DNA of 41,727 nucleotides from assembly GCA_902573735.1 (NCBI GenBank), contig CACGLH010000011.1, positions 1 through 41,727 of the forward strand. Direction: 5' to 3'. Below are positions 3,784 through 39,726 of this stretch, piece by piece. Below the pieces are notes generated by a model. The model was not told the DNA's origin, ran no database searches, and was given only the letters and a program-made list of their open reading frames with translations. The translations under genes were made by a program, and so were the position numbers. Numbering within the stretch: position 1 is the first letter of the stretch; each line of letters starts with the position of its first letter. The DNA comes from an uncultured Alphaproteobacteria bacterium. GTDB taxonomy: Bacteria > Pseudomonadota > Alphaproteobacteria > Rhodobacterales > Rhodobacteraceae.

Positions 3784-4647
3784 GTGAAAATTGGATTTAT
3801 AGGCCTAGGTAACATGGGATTGCCAATGGCTGAAAATTTACAAAAAGAGGGTCATGAGGTAACAGGATTTGATATAAATAAAAATATTAATTCCAATATT
3901 AGAATTTCAAACAGTATTGAAGAAATTGTTAAAAGTAATAAGGCTATATTTACAATGCTTCCAAGTGGTAAAGAAGTTATTGTAGTTTATGATGAAATTA
4001 TAGATAAATGTGAAAGTTCCACTATAATGATAGATTGTTCTACAATAGATATAAAAAGTACTCATATAATATCGAACATTTCAAAAAAAAATGGATTACT
4101 TACTTTAGATGCACCAGTTTCAGGTGGAGTAGTAGGTGCAGTAGATGGCACTTTGACTTTTATGGTAGGAGGCGATGAAAGAGCTTTCTATAAAATTAAG
4201 CCTTTGTTTGAAGTGATGGGCAAAAAAGCAGTTTATTGTGGAGATTCAGGCTCAGGACAAGCAGCAAAAATGTGTAATAACATGATTTTAGGGATTTCAA
4301 TGATTGGCGTTTGTGAATCTTTCACTTTAGCAAAAAAAATTGGCTTGGATTTGAAAAAACTTTATGAGGTTTCTTCAAATTCATCTGGTAGTTGTTGGGC
4401 TCTTAATACTTACTGTCCTGCCCCTGAAATTGGCCCAGAAACACCTGCTGATAAAAATTATTTACCAGGTTTTTCATCTGAGTTAATGCTGAAAGATTTA
4501 ATGCTTGCTCAGGATGCTGCAATTCAATCTAATTCACATACTCCACTCGGTAATCACGCAATGAAAATCTATGAAGAGTTATTGAATGAGGGTGGTAAGG
4601 GTAAAGATTTCTCTTATGTTTTTCCTTTTTTTTATAATAAGAAATAA
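3784..4647 (+). CDS. mmsB: 3-hydroxyisobutyrate dehydrogenase
   Basis: NAD-dependent oxidation of 3-hydroxyisobutyrate to methylmalonate semialdehyde, the substrate of mmsA at the head of the same operon. The 287 residues carry the Rossmann motif GFIGLGNMGLPMAENL at the N-terminus, the substrate-binding DAPVSGGVVGA, and GSGQAAKMCNNM with the catalytic lysine, all hallmarks of beta-hydroxyacid dehydrogenases. The C-terminal DLMLAQDAA and GKGKDFSYVFPF fit the HIBADH subgroup. The start is GTG, preceded by AGGAGG at a good distance. Its 3' end almost touches the convergent methyltransferase gene, with one base between the stops. Confidence 0.93.
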   Translation: MKIGFIGLGNMGLPMAENLQKEGHEVTGFDINKNINSNIRISNSIEEIVKSNKAIFTMLPSGKEVIVVYDEIIDKCESSTIMIDCSTIDIKSTHIISNISKKNGLLTLDAPVSGGVVGAVDGTLTFMVGGDERAFYKIKPLFEVMGKKAVYCGDSGSGQAAKMCNNMILGISMIGVCESFTLAKKIGLDLKKLYEVSSNSSGSCWALNTYCPAPEIGPETPADKNYLPGFSSELMLKDLMLAQDAAIQSNSHTPLGNHAMKIYEELLNEGGKGKDFSYVFPFFYNKK

Positions 4648-5417: not shown

Positions 5418-6809
5418 ATGAATATACAGAACAAAAGTCTGAAAAACTCGTTGGAATTTAAATCCATTGATTATCAACTTCAACCTTACACTAATCCAGA
5501 ATTAATAAATGAAAAGGGTCCTCAAGTATTTAATTCAGGGAGTGGCGTAAATGTAGAGGATATTGATGGGAATAGTTACATAGAAGGTATGAGTGGTCTT
5601 TGGTGTGCTTCATTAGGTTTTGGTGAAAATGAATTAATTGAAGCAGCAGTCAAACAAATGAGAAAACTTCCATATTATCATTCATTTACTGGAAAAACTT
5701 GTGAAGCAACAATAAAATTATCTGAAAAACTTATTGAAATTGCACCAAATAATTTGAAGAAAGTATTTTTCTGCAATTCAGGTTCAGAGGCAAATGATAC
5801 TGCAATAAAAATTGTCTGGTACTATCACTCGTCTTTAGGAAATCCAAATAAAAGAAAGATTATAAGTAGGAAAGGAAGTTACCATGGTGTCACATTAGCT
5901 GCAGCTAGTCTAACTGCTTTAGATTATGCCCAAAAGGGCTTTGGTTTACCCCTTGATTTTGCCCTTCATACAACATGGCCCCATTATTTTCAAAATTCTT
6001 ATGAAAATGAGAGTGAAAAAGAATTTTGTAGCCGTTTAATTAAAGATCTAGAGAAACTTATAGAAATGGAGGGTGCTGAAAATATAGGTGCTTTTATTGC
6101 TGAACCCTTGATGGGAGCAGGTGGTGTTATTATCCCTCCAAAAAGCTACTTTGAGATGATACAACCTATACTTAAAAGGAACGAAATTTTATTTATTGCA
6201 GACGAAGTTATATCTGGTTTTGGCAGGACTGGTAATATGTGGGGAAGCCAAACTTTTAATATAAAACCAGATATTGTAACTTGTGCAAAAGGATTATCGT
6301 CTGCTTATGCACCTATTTCGGCAGTATTAATGTCTGAAAACATTTCTAAACAAGTTGAAAAACAAGCGATAAAATTAGGTCAATTTGGTCATGGCTATAC
6401 TTATTCTGGACACCCTGTTTCTTCTGCAGTTGCATTAAGAACGTTAGAAATTATGGAAGAAAGGGATATTATAACTCATGTTAGAGACATATCTACTGTA
6501 TTTTCGAAAAGAATTTCTGAGTTAAAGAAATATCGATGTATTGGCAATGTTCGTTCAATAGGTTTAATAGGTGCAGCAGAATTTATTAAACCAGGAACAA
6601 AAAGAGAAAAAATAGATCCACAACACAAATTTGCTGCTAAAGTTGTAAAAAAAATTCATGAAAAAGGTGTAATTTTAAGAGCTTTACCAATTGACGCTAT
6701 AGCTTTTTGCCCACCACTTATCATATGTAAAGATGAAATAAATCAAATGTTTGACAGGATTGAAACTGTTTTACCGGAAATGGATCAAGTTGCTTATGGA
6801 TATGTTTAA
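5418..6809 (+). CDS. Class III aminotransferase (omega-amino acid:pyruvate type)
   Basis: A PLP enzyme of 463 residues transferring an amino group from an omega-amino acid or amine to a keto acid. Motifs in order: FFCNSGSEANDTAIK (PLP phosphate binding), SYHGVTLAA, AFIAEPLMGAGGVI, LFIADEVISGFGRTG (Asp holding the pyridine N), and TCAKGLSSAYAP with the Schiff-base Lys291. The overall pattern resembles GABA/beta-alanine:pyruvate or putrescine:pyruvate aminotransferases more than GabT or ArgD. If beta-alanine is the donor, the product malonate semialdehyde could be used by MmsA upstream; that is inference. The ATG follows AAGG. It is probably the first gene of its own transcript. Confidence 0.87.
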   Translation: MNIQNKSLKNSLEFKSIDYQLQPYTNPELINEKGPQVFNSGSGVNVEDIDGNSYIEGMSGLWCASLGFGENELIEAAVKQMRKLPYYHSFTGKTCEATIKLSEKLIEIAPNNLKKVFFCNSGSEANDTAIKIVWYYHSSLGNPNKRKIISRKGSYHGVTLAAASLTALDYAQKGFGLPLDFALHTTWPHYFQNSYENESEKEFCSRLIKDLEKLIEMEGAENIGAFIAEPLMGAGGVIIPPKSYFEMIQPILKRNEILFIADEVISGFGRTGNMWGSQTFNIKPDIVTCAKGLSSAYAPISAVLMSENISKQVEKQAIKLGQFGHGYTYSGHPVSSAVALRTLEIMEERDIITHVRDISTVFSKRISELKKYRCIGNVRSIGLIGAAEFIKPGTKREKIDPQHKFAAKVVKKIHEKGVILRALPIDAIAFCPPLIICKDEINQMFDRIETVLPEMDQVAYGYV

Positions 6810-7844: not shown

Positions 7845-8804
7845 ATGTCTGAAACCATAGAAAATGAAGAAATAAAAAATCTTAAGAGGGAAGTAGCAAA
7901 ACTTCGCTTAGAGGGAAATTTAAGAAAATCTTTATCTAATCAATTAACCATTCAAAAAAAAATAGCTGATGATGCTAAAGCTGAAGCATTAGCTAAAAGT
8001 GAAGAAGTTGAAAAAATATCAAAGCAACTAGCTAAATATCTATCTCCACAAATACATGAGCAAATTTTCAGTGGAAAACAAAGTGCTGAAGTGAAAAGCA
8101 ATAGAAAGAAATTAACAGTTTTTTTTTCTGACATTGTTGGATTTACTGATATCTCAGATGAGTTAGAATCTGAAGAAATGACAAATTTATTAAATTTTTA
8201 TTTAAATGAAATGTCTCAAATAGCACTAAGATTTGGTGGAACAATTGATAAGTTTATTGGTGATGCGCTAATGATATTTTTTGGTGACCCTGATACAAAT
8301 GGACCTCAAGAGGATGCAAGGAAATGTATTCAAATGGCATTAGAAATGCAAAAATTAATGAATCAGCTTAGTGGGTATTGGTCAAAAAATTACAGTTTAA
8401 AACAGGATTTAAAAATTAGAATTGGGATCAATACTGGTTTTTGTACTGTTGGAAATTTTGGCAGCTTAGATCGTTTAGATTATACAGCCATTGGCAGCAC
8501 AGTTAATTTAGCTTCTAGATTAGAAAGCATTGCTGAAGCTGGATCAATTATTATATCCGAGGATACATTCGCTCTTGTTAATAATTTTTTTACATTTAAA
8601 AAACCCAAAAATGTTAAAATTAAGGGTTTTTTGAGGGATATAAAATGTTATGAATTAAAAAAAGAGGATACCTCTAAAGAAGACATGTTTTCATTGTCAG
8701 GCAAAGGGTTTCAAATTGATATAAATAAAAAAATTATTAAAAAAGATGCTTTAGATGAAATAAAAAACAAATTAAGTTTAATTATGGATGGTGATACCGG
8801 TTAA
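7845..8804 (+). CDS. Soluble class III adenylate/guanylate cyclase
   Basis: A 319-residue protein: an N-terminal coiled coil (about 1-60), the short linker LAKYLSPQIHEQIFSGK common before such domains, then the cyclase homology domain (about 85-265). Both metal aspartates are present (Asp96 in FFSDIVGF, Asp140 in FIGDALMIFFGDP). So are the substrate lysine in TIDKFIGD, the aspartate in RLDYT, and the transition-state Asn/Arg in VNLASRLE, so it should be active. Lys plus Asp as base-selecting residues favours ATP, making cAMP. It is a clear paralogue of the C-terminal half of the gene at 38230-39726 but lacks a sensor domain. The tail after about residue 270 is unassigned. It is likely co-transcribed with the antiporter. 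Confidence 0.92.
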   Translation: MSETIENEEIKNLKREVAKLRLEGNLRKSLSNQLTIQKKIADDAKAEALAKSEEVEKISKQLAKYLSPQIHEQIFSGKQSAEVKSNRKKLTVFFSDIVGFTDISDELESEEMTNLLNFYLNEMSQIALRFGGTIDKFIGDALMIFFGDPDTNGPQEDARKCIQMALEMQKLMNQLSGYWSKNYSLKQDLKIRIGINTGFCTVGNFGSLDRLDYTAIGSTVNLASRLESIAEAGSIIISEDTFALVNNFFTFKKPKNVKIKGFLRDIKCYELKKEDTSKEDMFSLSGKGFQIDINKKIIKKDALDEIKNKLSLIMDGDTG

Positions 8805-8862
8805 TATACTTTTAATAAATAAGTGTAAAAGATACATAAAATAATCAAAAGGTAAATGATTA

Positions 8863-9060
8863 ATGGTAGCTCATGAGTTACAAAACACTTGCATGTTTTG
8901 AAAAAAAACCAAGGAAAAAGTAAAAAAACTTTTTCTCGGTAAGAATGCAAACATTTGTGATGAATGCGTTAAGATAGTATTTAATTTTAAAAATGGTAAT
9001 ACAGATGAAAAGTTAGTTAAACATCATTTATTAAGAAATGATTTTGATGATAATTATTAA
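8863..9060 (+). pseudogene. ClpX-type C4 zinc-finger mini-gene with in-frame TGA at a zinc-ligand Cys (pseudogene or selenoprotein)
   Basis: Read from ATG 8863 to TAA 9058 there are 65 codons with one interruption, TGA at 8899-8901. The translation around it is TCMF(TGA)KKTKEKVKKLFLGKN, followed by ANICDECVKIV. This matches the ClpX zinc-binding domain pattern CSFCGKSQxEVxKLIAGPNVYICDEC, and the TGA falls exactly where the second zinc Cys belongs. The other three ligands (codons at 8890, 8956, 8965) are intact. No ATG, GTG or TTG follows the TGA in frame, so the downstream part is made only if the TGA is read through. TGA is an ordinary stop elsewhere in the window (nadE, the GhrA-like gene). 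A point mutation, an assembly error, or selenocysteine are all possible; the sequence alone cannot decide. Confidence 0.6.
8909..8939 (+). other. Hairpin just after the in-frame TGA (possible SECIS-like element)
   Basis: GGAAAAAG (8913-8920) can pair with CTTTTTCT (8929-8936) around an 8-base loop, and CC 8909-8910 with GG 8938-8939 outside a small internal loop. It begins 8 bases after the TGA, with the apical loop about 20 bases downstream, which is in the range of bacterial SECIS hairpins. The loop starts UA and lacks the G usually required among its first bases, unless the closing G-C pair opens. The stem is mostly A-U, so it may be chance. Confidence 0.25.
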
Positions 9061-9103
9061 TTAAATATTTTATAATTATTTTTTAAATGACTTGAGAGTA
9101 TAT

Positions 9104-9121
9104 CCTTTTTATGTAAAAAGG
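9104..9121. repeat. 18-bp palindrome between the zinc-finger mini-gene and tRNA-Arg
   Basis: CCTTTTTATGTAAAAAGG has 8-base arms around TG. No T-run follows, so it is not a standard terminator on the plus strand; it could be an operator or a weak transcript end. Two copies of GTTTGCGC (9137-9144 and 9156-9163, 19 bases apart) lie between it and the tRNA. Confidence 0.4.
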
Positions 9122-9174
9122 AGATTCGTCTTATGGGTTTGCGCTTAAAAATAATGTTTGCGCAATTAAATTGT

Positions 9175-9251
9175 GGGCACGTAGCTCAGTTGGATAGAGC
9201 GACGGACTTCTAATCCGTAGGTCGGGGGTTCGAATCCTCCCGTGCTCACCA
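9175..9251 (+). tRNA. tRNA-Arg (anticodon TCT)
   Basis: A complete cloverleaf of 77 bases. The acceptor stem GGGCACG pairs with CGTGCTC (one G-U), followed by discriminator A and encoded CCA. The D arm is GCTC-AGTTGGAT-AGAGC, the anticodon arm ACGGA-CTTCTAA-TCCGT, and the T arm GGGGG-TTCGAAT-CCTCC. The anticodon TCT reads AGA/AGG arginine codons, the preferred Arg codons in this AT-rich sequence. It stands alone and converges on the NDUFS4-like gene. Confidence 0.97.
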
Positions 9252-9273
9252 AATCCTATGAAATTTTACAAAA

Positions 9274-9585
9274 TTAATGTGTCCATGGTATTTTTTTATT
9301 ATATGCAAAATTGTCACCATATCCATTTTCCCTAATGATATGTTTTCTAGAGTTAGCATAGAGAACAGTATATGGTATCCCATTTTTTTTTGCATAATTA
9401 ATAGCTACTTCTTTTGACTCAAACCATAGTTGTACCTGACTATTTGTATCACTAGATCCAGTCCATCCCATAAGTGGTTCAATTGATTTAGCCATATCAT
9501 ATTCTAATTCTAACACCCATTTTTTTGTTTGTGCCATTCCAGATTGCATTGCGGTTTTTGAGGGCTTGTATATTCTTGCTACCAT
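9274..9585 (-). CDS. NADH dehydrogenase accessory subunit, NDUFS4-like (ETC_C1 family)
   Basis: A 103-residue protein matching the conserved alphaproteobacterial/mitochondrial complex I accessory subunit (18 kDa, NDUFS4 type). It begins ARIYKPSKTAMQSGMAQTKK and holds the family signature PLMGWTGSSDTNSQVQLWF, then KEVAINYAKKNGIPY. It acts as a peripheral-arm subunit of complex I at the inner membrane. In this group the gene is often away from the nuo operon, as here. It is transcribed away from uvrB, with about 150 bases of shared AT-rich promoter region between them. I saw no clear ribosome site ahead of the ATG. Confidence 0.93.
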   Translation of the reverse strand: MVARIYKPSKTAMQSGMAQTKKWVLELEYDMAKSIEPLMGWTGSSDTNSQVQLWFESKEVAINYAKKNGIPYTVLYANSRKHIIRENGYGDNFAYNKKIPWTH

Positions 9586-9736
9586 TTTAATAAGGAAAAT
9601 ATTATTATTGAAGTAATCTTTATGAACATTAAATAAGTATCACACTATATTGGTATTAATATTCTTATAGTCAACTATTTAATTATTTTGTTTTAATTAA
9701 GATTACATATGGTTAATTAAATAATTCAAAAGAAAT

Positions 9737-11881
9737 ATGGTCGTTAAAGAAAAATTACAATCTGGTCAGATATTCAAAATTCAATCTGATTTTAAGCCTT
9801 CAGGTGATCAACCAAACGCAATTAAAGAATTAGTCGCTGGTATAAATTCATCTGAAAGAAATCAAGTACTATTAGGTGCTACTGGTACGGGAAAAACATT
9901 TACTATTGCTCATATCATTGAAAAAACTCAGAGGCCTGCAGTAATTTTAGCACCTAACAAAACTTTAGCAGCTCAACTTTATGGTGAATTCAAGACATTC
10001 TTTCCAGATAATGCAGTAGAATATTTTGTGTCTTTCTATGATTATTATCAACCTGAAGCCTATGTTCCTAGATCTGATACTTATATAGAAAAAGATGCTC
10101 AAATAAATGAGCAAATAGATAGAATGAGACATTCTGCAACTCAAGCACTATTAGAAAGAGATGATGTTATTATAGTTGCTTCAGTTTCTTGTATATATGG
10201 TATTGGTTCAGTAGAGACATATAGCGCCATGACCCAGGATTTGAGAAAAGGTAACAATTATGAGTTACGAAAAATAGTATCCGCTTTAGTAGAACAACAA
10301 TACAGAAGAAACGATCAGGCATTCCAAAGGGGGACTTTTCGTCTAAGGGGTGACGTATTAGAGATTTGGCCTGCACACCTAGAAAGTAGAGCATGGAGGC
10401 TGTCTTTTTTTGGGGATGAACTTGAAAAACTAGACGAGTTTGATCCCCTTACTGGAGAAAAAACAAAAAAAATGAATACTGTTAGAATTTATGCAAATTC
10501 ACATTATGTTACTCCAAGACCAACACTTACTCAGGCTATAAAAAAAATAAAAATAGATTTATTAAAAAGACTTGAAGAATTAAATAAAAATAACCAATTA
10601 CTTGAAGCTCAAAGATTGGAACAGAGAACTAATTTTGACCTAGAAATGATGGAGGCTACTGGGTCTTGTAATGGGATTGAGAATTATTCTCGTTATCTTA
10701 CAGGAAGGAAACCTGGAGAGCCACCTCCAACTTTATTTGAATATATACCAAACGATGCAATTATTTTTGCTGATGAAAGTCATGTTGCGATACCTCAACT
10801 AGGCGGTATGTACAGGGGAGATCACAGAAGAAAGCTTACTCTTTCAGAGCATGGATTTAGATTACCTTCATGCATGGACAATAGACCATTGAAATTTGAG
10901 GAATGGGATGCAATGAGGCCACAATCAATATTTGTTTCAGCAACACCTGGTAATTGGGAGTTATCATCAACTCAAGGAGTTTTTGTTGAACAAATAATAA
11001 GACCAACTGGTTTAATCGATCCACCAGTAGAAATTAGACCAATTCAAAATCAGGTTGATGATCTTTTGTATGAAGTAAATATTGCATCAAAAAACAATCT
11101 AAGAACTTTATGTACTGTTCTAACTAAGAGGATGGCAGAGGACCTTACTGAGTTTTTAAATGAAAAAGGTGTGAGAGTTCGATATCTTCATTCAGATATT
11201 GACACTTTAGAAAGAATAGAAATTATAAGAGATTTAAGGCTTGGTACATTTGATGTTCTTATAGGTATAAATCTTCTGAGAGAGGGTCTAGATATACCTG
11301 AATGTGGTTTAGTAGCTATTTTGGACGCCGATAAAGAAGGATTCTTAAGATCTCAAACTTCGCTTATACAAACAATTGGGCGTGCTGCAAGGAATGTGGA
11401 TGGTAAAGTTATAATGTATGCTGATAAAATTACAGGCAGCATAAAAGTAGCTATTGAAGAAACTAAAAGAAGAAGAGAAAAACAAATTGCATATAATAAT
11501 GTTAATAAAATTACTCCTGAAAGTATAAAGAAAAACGTAAAAGATGTTTTAGAAGGAGTATTTGAGGGTAAAACTGATTTAGAAAGAGTAACTGCAAAAA
11601 TTGATACTAAAAAATATGGAGATAATTTACAAGCACACCTTAATGGGATGAGGAAAGAAATGTTTGCAGCTGCTGAAAATTTGGAATTTGAAGAAGCTGC
11701 ACGACTTCGTGATGAGATTAATAAGCTTGAAAAAGTTGAACTATCAATTATGGATAATCCTTTTTTAAGGCAATCAGATATAAATCTTGAAAATGAAAAT
11801 AGCTTAAAAAAAACAAAAGGTAGATCAAAAGGAGGAATTGCAGGAACGCGCACTGTAAGAAGTAAAGCTAGAACAATTTAA
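9737..11881 (+). CDS. uvrB: Excinuclease ABC subunit B
   Basis: Damage-verifying helicase of nucleotide excision repair, working with UvrA and UvrC. At 714 residues it is full length. The Walker A motif GATGTGKT (residues 47-54), the beta-hairpin region [20 protein letters not shown], the DEAD-like IFADESH, helicase motif [10 protein letters not shown], and motif [11 protein letters not shown] are all present. The UvrC-binding UVR motif lies near the C-terminus ([15 protein letters not shown]). The C-terminal basic tail ([20 protein letters not shown]) is typical of alphaproteobacterial UvrB. It stands alone; neither flanking gene is on the same strand. Confidence 0.98.
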
Positions 11882-38162: not shown

Positions 38163-38229
38163 CTTATTTAAAAACAATTACTAATTTTTTTAAAAAATTA
38201 ATCAAAAAAATAAAGGCAAAACTATTTTG

Positions 38230-39726
38230 ATGGATAAGCCTATTCAAAAAGATGAGTTTGAGAATTTAAAAAAGGTCTTAGAGAGAAAGACTAAGGAATT
38301 TGAAATTATTAAGCAGATTTCTTCTCAAATAAACAAAACATTAGATATTAATTTTATAGCCTCAGCAATGTTAAATGCAATGGATGAGTTTTTTGGATTT
38401 AAATATTCGATGATATTGCTTGTTGATGAAAAAATGCAAAAACTTAATGTCTTGGCAAGCCATGGATATGATATTAAAGGCATTGGTGCAAGTGTGAAAT
38501 TAGGTGTAGGGGTTATAGGAATAGTAGCTAAAAAGAAAAAAATGATGAGAATGGCTAACTTAGGAATGCAAAGAAGTTATATGAAGGCTATAAAAAACCA
38601 GATTAGTCCAGAGGAAAAGAAAAAATTAGGTAATGAGGTAGAATTACCCGGTCTAAAAAACGCTGAAAGCCAAGTTGCTATACCAATGCTCTTTAATAAT
38701 GAATTGATAGGTGTGTTATCAGTAGAAAGTGAAAAAGTAAATATTTTTAATAATTCTGATGAGCTATTAATTGGAATTTTAGCCAACCAAACTGCTAATG
38801 CACTTCAAAATGCAAAACTTTATCAATTGGAACAAAAAAGAAAATTAGAACTTAATAATGCATATTCAGAATTAGAAAAACTCAATACTTCTCTTGAAAA
38901 AAGAGTTGATGAAAGAACTAAAGAACTTTTAGATCTTTCAAAAAAACTAGCGAAATATTTTTCACCACAAGTTTATCAATCAATTTTTTCTGGTAAATTA
39001 GATGTCAAAATACAAACAAAAAGAAAACCTTTGACTGTCTTTTTTTCAGATCTTGAAGGGTTTACTGAACTAACTGAAAGGCTGGAACCAGAAGTTCTTA
39101 CTGAAATCCTTACTCAATATTTAACTGAAATGTCGAACATAGCAATCAAATGGGGTGGAACAATAGACAAATTTATTGGTGACGCTTTACTAGTTTTTTT
39201 TGGAGATCCAAGTTCAAATGGAAACAAAGAGGACGCTATAGCATGTGTTTCAATGGCTATAGAAATGCTTGAAAAATTAGAAATCTTAAGAAATTTTTGG
39301 AGAGATAAAGGAATTTCAAAACCTTTAAACGCAAGAATTGGAATTCATACAGGAGTTTGCACAGTTGGAAATTTTGGTTCAGAAGATAGATTAGATTACA
39401 CCATTATAGGTAATGGAGTAAATCTGGCCTCTAGAATTGAAACAAGTGCAGGGTCTAATAAAATCTTATTATCTGAAGATACCTATCTTTTAATTAAAAA
39501 AGATATAATTTGTTCAAAAAAACAAAAAATAGATGTAAAGGGTATTTCTTATCCAGTACAAACTTATGAAGTATTAGGATTTGCAAATAAATATTCTAAA
39601 ATCCCTTCTTTTGTTGAAAAAAGTATTCCTGGTCTCTCTTTATCACTAGATAAATCAGAAATTAAAGATAACCAGATTGCAATAAATTTGATTAAAGATG
39701 CTCTAAGAGCTCTTCAATCTGATTAA
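38230..39726 (+). CDS. GAF-domain class III adenylate/guanylate cyclase
   Basis: 498 residues from ATG 38230; a TTG one codon earlier is possible. Order: an N-terminal helix, a GAF domain (about 20-195; IASAMLNAMDEFFGFKYSMI, SQVAIPMLFNNELIGVLSVE, NQTANALQNAKLY), a coiled coil (about 196-240), the linker KLAKYFSPQVYQSIFSGK, and the cyclase domain (about 262-440). Metal ligands Asp274 (FFSDLEGF) and Asp318 (FIGDALLVFFGDP), the purine Lys and Asp (TIDKF, RLDYT) and transition-state Asn/Arg (VNLASRIE) are all present, so it should be active, probably making cAMP. It is a paralogue of 7845-8804 with a sensor added. Third gene after two PPOX proteins. Confidence 0.93.
   Translation: MDKPIQKDEFENLKKVLERKTKEFEIIKQISSQINKTLDINFIASAMLNAMDEFFGFKYSMILLVDEKMQKLNVLASHGYDIKGIGASVKLGVGVIGIVAKKKKMMRMANLGMQRSYMKAIKNQISPEEKKKLGNEVELPGLKNAESQVAIPMLFNNELIGVLSVESEKVNIFNNSDELLIGILANQTANALQNAKLYQLEQKRKLELNNAYSELEKLNTSLEKRVDERTKELLDLSKKLAKYFSPQVYQSIFSGKLDVKIQTKRKPLTVFFSDLEGFTELTERLEPEVLTEILTQYLTEMSNIAIKWGGTIDKFIGDALLVFFGDPSSNGNKEDAIACVSMAIEMLEKLEILRNFWRDKGISKPLNARIGIHTGVCTVGNFGSEDRLDYTIIGNGVNLASRIETSAGSNKILLSEDTYLLIKKDIICSKKQKIDVKGISYPVQTYEVLGFANKYSKIPSFVEKSIPGLSLSLDKSEIKDNQIAINLIKDALRALQSD

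Follow-up and report, generated by a model that had tools for sequence, protein, structure and literature searches.

What does an in-frame TGA on a conserved cysteine position stand for: selenocysteine (Sec), a gene that has recently been broken, or a wrongly called base? The locus discussed here raises this question. It lies in a stretch of 41,727 nucleotides from an uncultured alphaproteobacterium (the window), whose forward strand carries at 8863..9060 a frame of 65 codons, running from an ATG at 8863 to a TAA ending at 9060 and holding a single internal TGA. The first-pass annotation had described this frame as a ClpX-type zinc-binding domain, and indeed the profile PF06689 (zf-C4_ClpX) matches across the TGA with 32.9 bits (cut-off 27). 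The zinc-ligand positions follow one another as Cys10 (TGC, 8890..8892), the TGA at codon 13 (8899..8901), and Cys32-Asp-Glu-Cys35 (TGT GAT GAA TGC, 8956..8967), so instead of the four cysteines of the zf-C4_ClpX family the mini-gene has three and a TGA. The annotation had also placed the TGA at a zinc ligand and counted the other three as intact. This is what we read, its “fourth” ligand being the missing one of four, namely the second in order. The mini-gene with a TGA at its second Cys ligand is thus confirmed as an observation, and we consider it probable that it is best explained by a nonsense mutation in a dispensable or weakly constrained zinc finger known only from one genus.

The likeness to the N-terminal zinc-binding domain of ClpX (PF06689; PDB 1ovx, 2ds5, 2ds7) concerns both the sequence and the layout of C-x2-C, spacer, and C-x2-C. 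A profile of the mini-proteins found only ClpX chains in the PDB (seven distinct sequences at E ≤ 0.01). Unlike ClpX, the mini-gene has no AAA+ part, stands alone with its 65 codons beside a tRNA-Arg gene, and has one ligand codon replaced by TGA. All six members of the mini-protein set (A2) match PF06689 at E ≤ 0.1, the own member being read with C at the TGA, and the member from the relative G010 reaches 36.4 bits. In the genome that carries the window (G000), the profile matches just the mini-gene and an intact ClpX on contig C3, which has kept its four cysteines. Literature searches returned a match on two-component systems only for a standalone ClpX zinc-binding domain, on mercury transcriptomics only for a ClpX zinc finger with selenocysteine, and on archaeal recoding only for Sec, pseudogenes, and sequencing errors. 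The word ClpX is absent from the main text of PMC2398784, PMC12013277, and PMC13188914.

The frame itself says less than it seems to. Inspection bears out the annotation's statement that 52 further open codons follow the TGA with no later start, as there is no in-frame ATG, GTG, or TTG among them. Random DNA of the same composition would have a chance of about 2% of staying open as long, but this openness is inherited from the intact gene and is uninformative on read-through. Nor is it a great coincidence that the stop landed on a Cys codon, because 4 of the 30 possible single-base stops in the intact G010 gene turn Cys into TGA (a chance of about 13% for a random nonsense hit). A genome-wide reading of TGA as sense was ruled out: TGA terminates 3 of the 34 window ORFs taken for genes, in agreement with the annotation, which regarded it as a normal stop in this DNA. 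Low-level read-through by a near-cognate tRNA would yield a little full-length protein with a residue other than Cys at codon 13. The open codons after the TGA could be seen as a point in its favor; on the other hand, openness is expected for any recent mutation, there is no sign of selection for read-through, and a non-Cys residue would remove the zinc ligand, which makes this explanation scarcely credible.

To place the TGA in its evolutionary context, 12 species of the genus were compared, the own species included. The records of the genus copies are named uncultured Alphaproteobacteria, Paracoccaceae, or Rhodobacteraceae, and the genus is probably marine, judging by isolate names. Standalone mini-genes occur in seven of the 12 species. 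In the own species, G010, G009, G008, and G011, they stand beside a tRNA-Arg (TCT), whereas in G005 and G002 they lie elsewhere. This tRNA (9175..9251, forward strand) is a synteny mark common to four relatives; ARAGORN finds it in the window, G009, G008, and G011, and the stretch in G010 is identical. An Rfam scan of 8000-10000 gave this tRNA alone above the gathering score, with two sub-threshold matches on its opposite strand. The forward-strand neighbors of the mini-gene are an upstream gene at 7845..8804 and a downstream gene at 9737..11881, which we take to be nucleotide-cyclase-like and uvrB-like, respectively. Over positions 26-32706 the window is collinear with contig C1 of G009.

Alignment of close relatives had been proposed as a check for a conserved TGA, and here the expectation for a selenoprotein fails. 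Each of the six further standalone copies found in the genus carries a Cys codon where the own copy has TGA; none has TGA, which is confined to a single assembly. At the same locus, the copies of G010, G009, G008, and G011 all read TGT at the place of codon 13, and their mini-proteins are intact orthologues with all four zinc-ligand cysteines. In G010, the DNA around the mini-gene is 93% identical over 571 bases. A scan of a named genome collection with two short patterns gave 10 loci, all without TGA at this place: the six genus copies, three ClpX-type frames from other organisms, and a single frame whose finger, with Cys at the TGA place, stands ahead of a different, unrelated-looking protein. 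Viral contigs held neither a relative of the mini-gene nor an exact match to the site pattern. A profile match in G004 was rejected as a mini-gene, being a clpX cut by a contig end. Within reach of the two short patterns, the mini-gene appears to be a small orphan confined to a single genus of Alphaproteobacteria.

Other copies in the genus are themselves in decay. In G005, whose genome is the most complete of the genus (97%), the copy is frameshifted after the first Cys and ahead of the second, just before the TGA place, and in the G002 copy the third Cys has become Arg. Both occupy a second location (1495-1676 on the reverse strand of locus L071 in G005, and 1492-1662 of L072 in G002) adjoining a presumably peptidase-M24-like gene, and no tRNA was found in these two loci. 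No copy was found in G001, G003, G004, G006, and G007; as these five assemblies are only 60-83% complete, some of the absences may be assembly gaps. In G002, G003, G005, and G007, a tRNA match is followed, as in the window, by a 103-aa-type gene and then uvrB, without a preceding mini-gene, and in G004 the tRNA lies near the same two genes but on the opposite strand. Among the matches listed for the examined flanking loci of G002-G007, none resembled a mini-gene remnant better than E 0.16. Judging from these genomes, the mini-gene seems dispensable in the genus.

The substitution pattern points the same way for the closest comparison. Between the own species and G010, the mini-gene has nine nonsynonymous changes and one synonymous change (159 N and 33 S sites; omega 1.9), whereas 32 neighboring window genes range from 0.00 to 0.32, with 0.05 for the cyclase-like and 0.06 for the uvrB-like neighbor. 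These 32 are the 35 ORFs given, minus two without a match in the G010 stretch and minus the mini-gene. The ORF at 5418..6809 is aligned over only 271 of its 1392 bases, and several later alignments are gapped. Codons with a stop on either side are omitted from N and S, the TGA codon itself being uncounted, and stops occur on the G010 side in three neighbor comparisons (24421, 31934, and 37225). In a rough binomial calculation, the 9:1 excess has P = 0.0003 at an omega of 0.1, 0.05 at 0.32, and 0.47 at 1. The value of 1.9 against 0.00-0.32 is as expected under relaxed constraint, although 10 substitutions give low power. In overall divergence, the mini-gene (5.6%) ranks between the cyclase-like gene, at 4.7%, and the 6.9-13.6% of four intergenic stretches. 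It is a fair statement, on these alignments, that constraint on the mini-gene appears weak in this species pair.

The direction of the changes is less simple. With G008, G009, and G011 as outgroups, the changes at otherwise constant residues (F12L, A29T, and D33I) fall on the branch of the Cys-coding G010, and the copy with the TGA adds only A39V; codons 18, 48, 49, 55, and 62 are not clearly placed. By this polarization, the own copy would, apart from its TGA, be less altered than that of G010. Between G008 and G009, the mini-gene looks constrained (omega 0.14, seven changes), and more distant pairs give 0.16-0.35, with synonymous sites nearly saturated.

Of the two inferences offered by the annotation, it is the recent nonsense mutation that fits best. 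We favor it because of the Cys in all six other copies, the nine nonsynonymous changes to one synonymous, the decay in G005 and G002, and the copies not found elsewhere. What counts against it are the small number of substitutions, the changes on the G010 branch, the constraint between G008 and G009, the open frame, and the sel genes of relatives described below. As we picture it, a small gene of one genus would encode a free ClpX-type zinc-binding domain, and in the own lineage, after the split from G010, the Cys codon at the second zinc ligand would have become TGA. We infer that the base is real and that the TGA acts as a stop at codon 13. Ribosomes would then most likely halt after 12 residues and the zinc finger would not be made, while a normal ClpX is retained elsewhere in the genome. 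Nonsense pseudogenes resemble the mini-gene in their single in-frame stop, Cys-coding relatives, high ratio of nonsynonymous to synonymous changes, and two decaying kin copies; the mini-gene differs from them only in that the stop coincides with a Cys codon.

Alternatively, the base may be an error of the assembly, arising in sequencing, or in amplification if the source was a single cell, in which case the gene would in truth be intact, with Cys at codon 13. The difference is indeed a single base confined to one assembly, and the conserved residues kept in the rest of the own copy agree with an error. Moreover, relatives are recorded under isolate names like AH-287-M23 and AG-891-A21, which we take to denote single amplified genomes. 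Against this stands the condition of the surrounding DNA: 32 of the 33 G010 ORFs of at least 100 aa along the stretch match the window and none is split, and only two stops occur on the own side, both at frame edges (within the first 22 codons and three codons before the end). These breaks were judged from the G010 ORFs, since the own ORFs, chosen as open frames, cannot show them. Also, the high ratio of amino acid changes is what a gene with waning constraint in this species pair would show anyway. So clean a window is a slight argument against careless assembly, yet it cannot decide on an individual base, and altogether we regard a base error as unlikely.

The other inference of the annotation was a selenoprotein, in which the TGA encodes Sec, so that a standalone zinc finger of the ClpX type would have a zinc or redox site of the form C-x-x-U. 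Its appeal lies in the exact coincidence of the TGA with a conserved Cys in a frame that stays open. In this the mini-gene resembles the bacterial CxxU/UxxC selenoproteins (SelW-like, AhpD-like, and PrdB) tabulated in PMC2398784; it differs from them in having no second homologue with TGA, a loop without G, and a structural zinc ligand in place of a redox site. FmdB is a zinc-ribbon protein. In favor of the selenoprotein, an FmdB-family regulatory protein is listed among the new selenoproteins of an ocean survey (PMC2398784), and Sec may serve as a metal ligand in some selenoproteins according to a 2026 review (PMC13188914). The absence of TGA from all six other copies and the 9:1 ratio with G010, which leaves no synonymous excess, argue in the opposite direction.

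The hairpin that follows the TGA (8908..8940, forward strand) is strong and suitably spaced, which counts in favor of Sec, but it deserves the same scrutiny. The 47 bases from the TGA fold with -10.5 kcal/mol (z = -3.4), and a fold as strong follows 1.8% of the 1621 TGA triplets on both strands of the window. The loop, AAAAAA, lies 20 nt after the TGA, in keeping with the SECIS-like distance and poor loop that the annotation had reported. The bSECIS model, as worded in PMC13188914, asks for a loop of 3-9 nt, a stem of 4-16 bp, a spacing of 16-37 nt, an MFE of at most -7.5, and a G in the first two loop positions, and the same text notes that some bSECIS lie outside it. Loop length (6 nt), pairing (12 pairs), spacing, and MFE of our hairpin agree with this model, but the G is lacking. 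Opening the top two pairs lets the loop begin with GU but enlarges it to 10 nt, beyond the limit in that text. When the model was coded from it, leaving off the upper stem limit of 16 bp, 42 of the 1621 window TGA triplets fit and that of the mini-gene is not among them.

The hairpin, moreover, is no property of the TGA copy. The Cys-coding G010 forms the same hairpin (-8.0) and G011 a similar one (-7.2), and it is weak in G008 (-3.2) and G009 (-3.6); because of this distribution, we conclude that it arises from the coding of a K-x-x-V-x-K-L-F stretch. The CxxU part of the annotation's inference is thus unsupported in view of the Cys-coding relatives, the lack of a synonymous excess, the decay of kin copies, and the hairpin, and a selenoprotein is improbable. 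Its most specific form, Sec at the second ligand by way of an unusual G-less, A-rich-loop SECIS in a genus that keeps selA, selB, and tRNASec beside a PrdB-like selenoprotein, is very improbable.

Members of the genus do possess machinery for Sec. In G010, G009, and G006, selA, selB, and tRNASec are clustered, and next to them comes a PrdB/GrdB-like gene whose UxxC place holds a TGA, which lends the selenoprotein reading some support. The in-frame TGA of this gene has the context VPV-U-PFCTRAVCG, and in G010 the part before it matches PF07355. Its TGA is followed in all three species by a CGC loop with G second, about 14 nt away, in a fold that does not stand out clearly from shuffled sequences (z -0.6 to -1.3). 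As assembled, the cluster is present in three of the 12 species (4008-8825 of L063 on G010:C15; on the reverse strand in L064 on G009:C1 and L065 on G006:C3), flanked by transporter-like genes. A selD match over the cut-off exists in nine of the 12 genomes, including G010 and G006 but not G009, where selA and selB without selD indicate that the assemblies are incomplete. No SelW-like Rdx (PF10262) was found in any of the 12.

In the own assembly, which is 77% complete, neither selA nor selD has a match and no selB match exceeds the cut-off, which at face value would weigh against Sec. Its tRNASec match (C16:26052-26137) only equals the gathering score (47 bits), as do matches in G001, G006, G009, G010, and G011, and is probably another long-armed tRNA. 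The stretch orthologous to the 18 kb around the G010 cluster is absent from it: this query gave 11 matches, 10 of them at 63-71% identity within query 11003-11682, presumably a transporter ATPase-like gene, and the eleventh, just 36 bases long, in the selB part. The far flank of the sel place is present only in pieces, on own contigs C51 and C9. Contig C46 (4171 bases) is 99% identical to G001:C5:31275-35444, and its end falls about 465 bases before the place of the selD match in G001. Refuting Sec by missing machinery, as the annotation had suggested, was thus dropped, since relatives carry the sel genes and the own assembly lacks those places; Sec may well be in use in the own species, and what argues against it here is conservation, the hairpin, and decay.

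As found, the mini-gene would be an ordinary case, a small orphan zinc finger that is broken in this copy. It advises caution, for a TGA on a conserved Cys, even with sel genes in relatives and a strong hairpin, is insufficient for a selenoprotein claim. Were the TGA to encode Sec after all, Cys would have given way to Sec very recently at a structural metal site, a change observed inside a single genus and, to our knowledge, the first Sec in the ClpX-type zinc-finger family.

A few further observations concern the assemblies. G001, at 99% identity over the own contig C46, is closer to the own species there than G010 is in the window, and the mini-gene locus was not found in its assembly. Its contig C44 (L086) ends inside selA at 4222 and the homologous stretch resumes about 7.4 kb on, in G001:C46; because of this break inside selA, a sel cluster of G001, if present, would lie in an assembly gap. 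On G009:C1, the mini-gene and the selA-selB cluster share one contig (L068, L106-L109), about 55 kb apart. Finally, the window holds two related nucleotide-cyclase-like stretches, at 7845-8804 and 38227-39726, each of which cross-matches the other's G010 counterpart with 75-77% identity over 119-164 bases.
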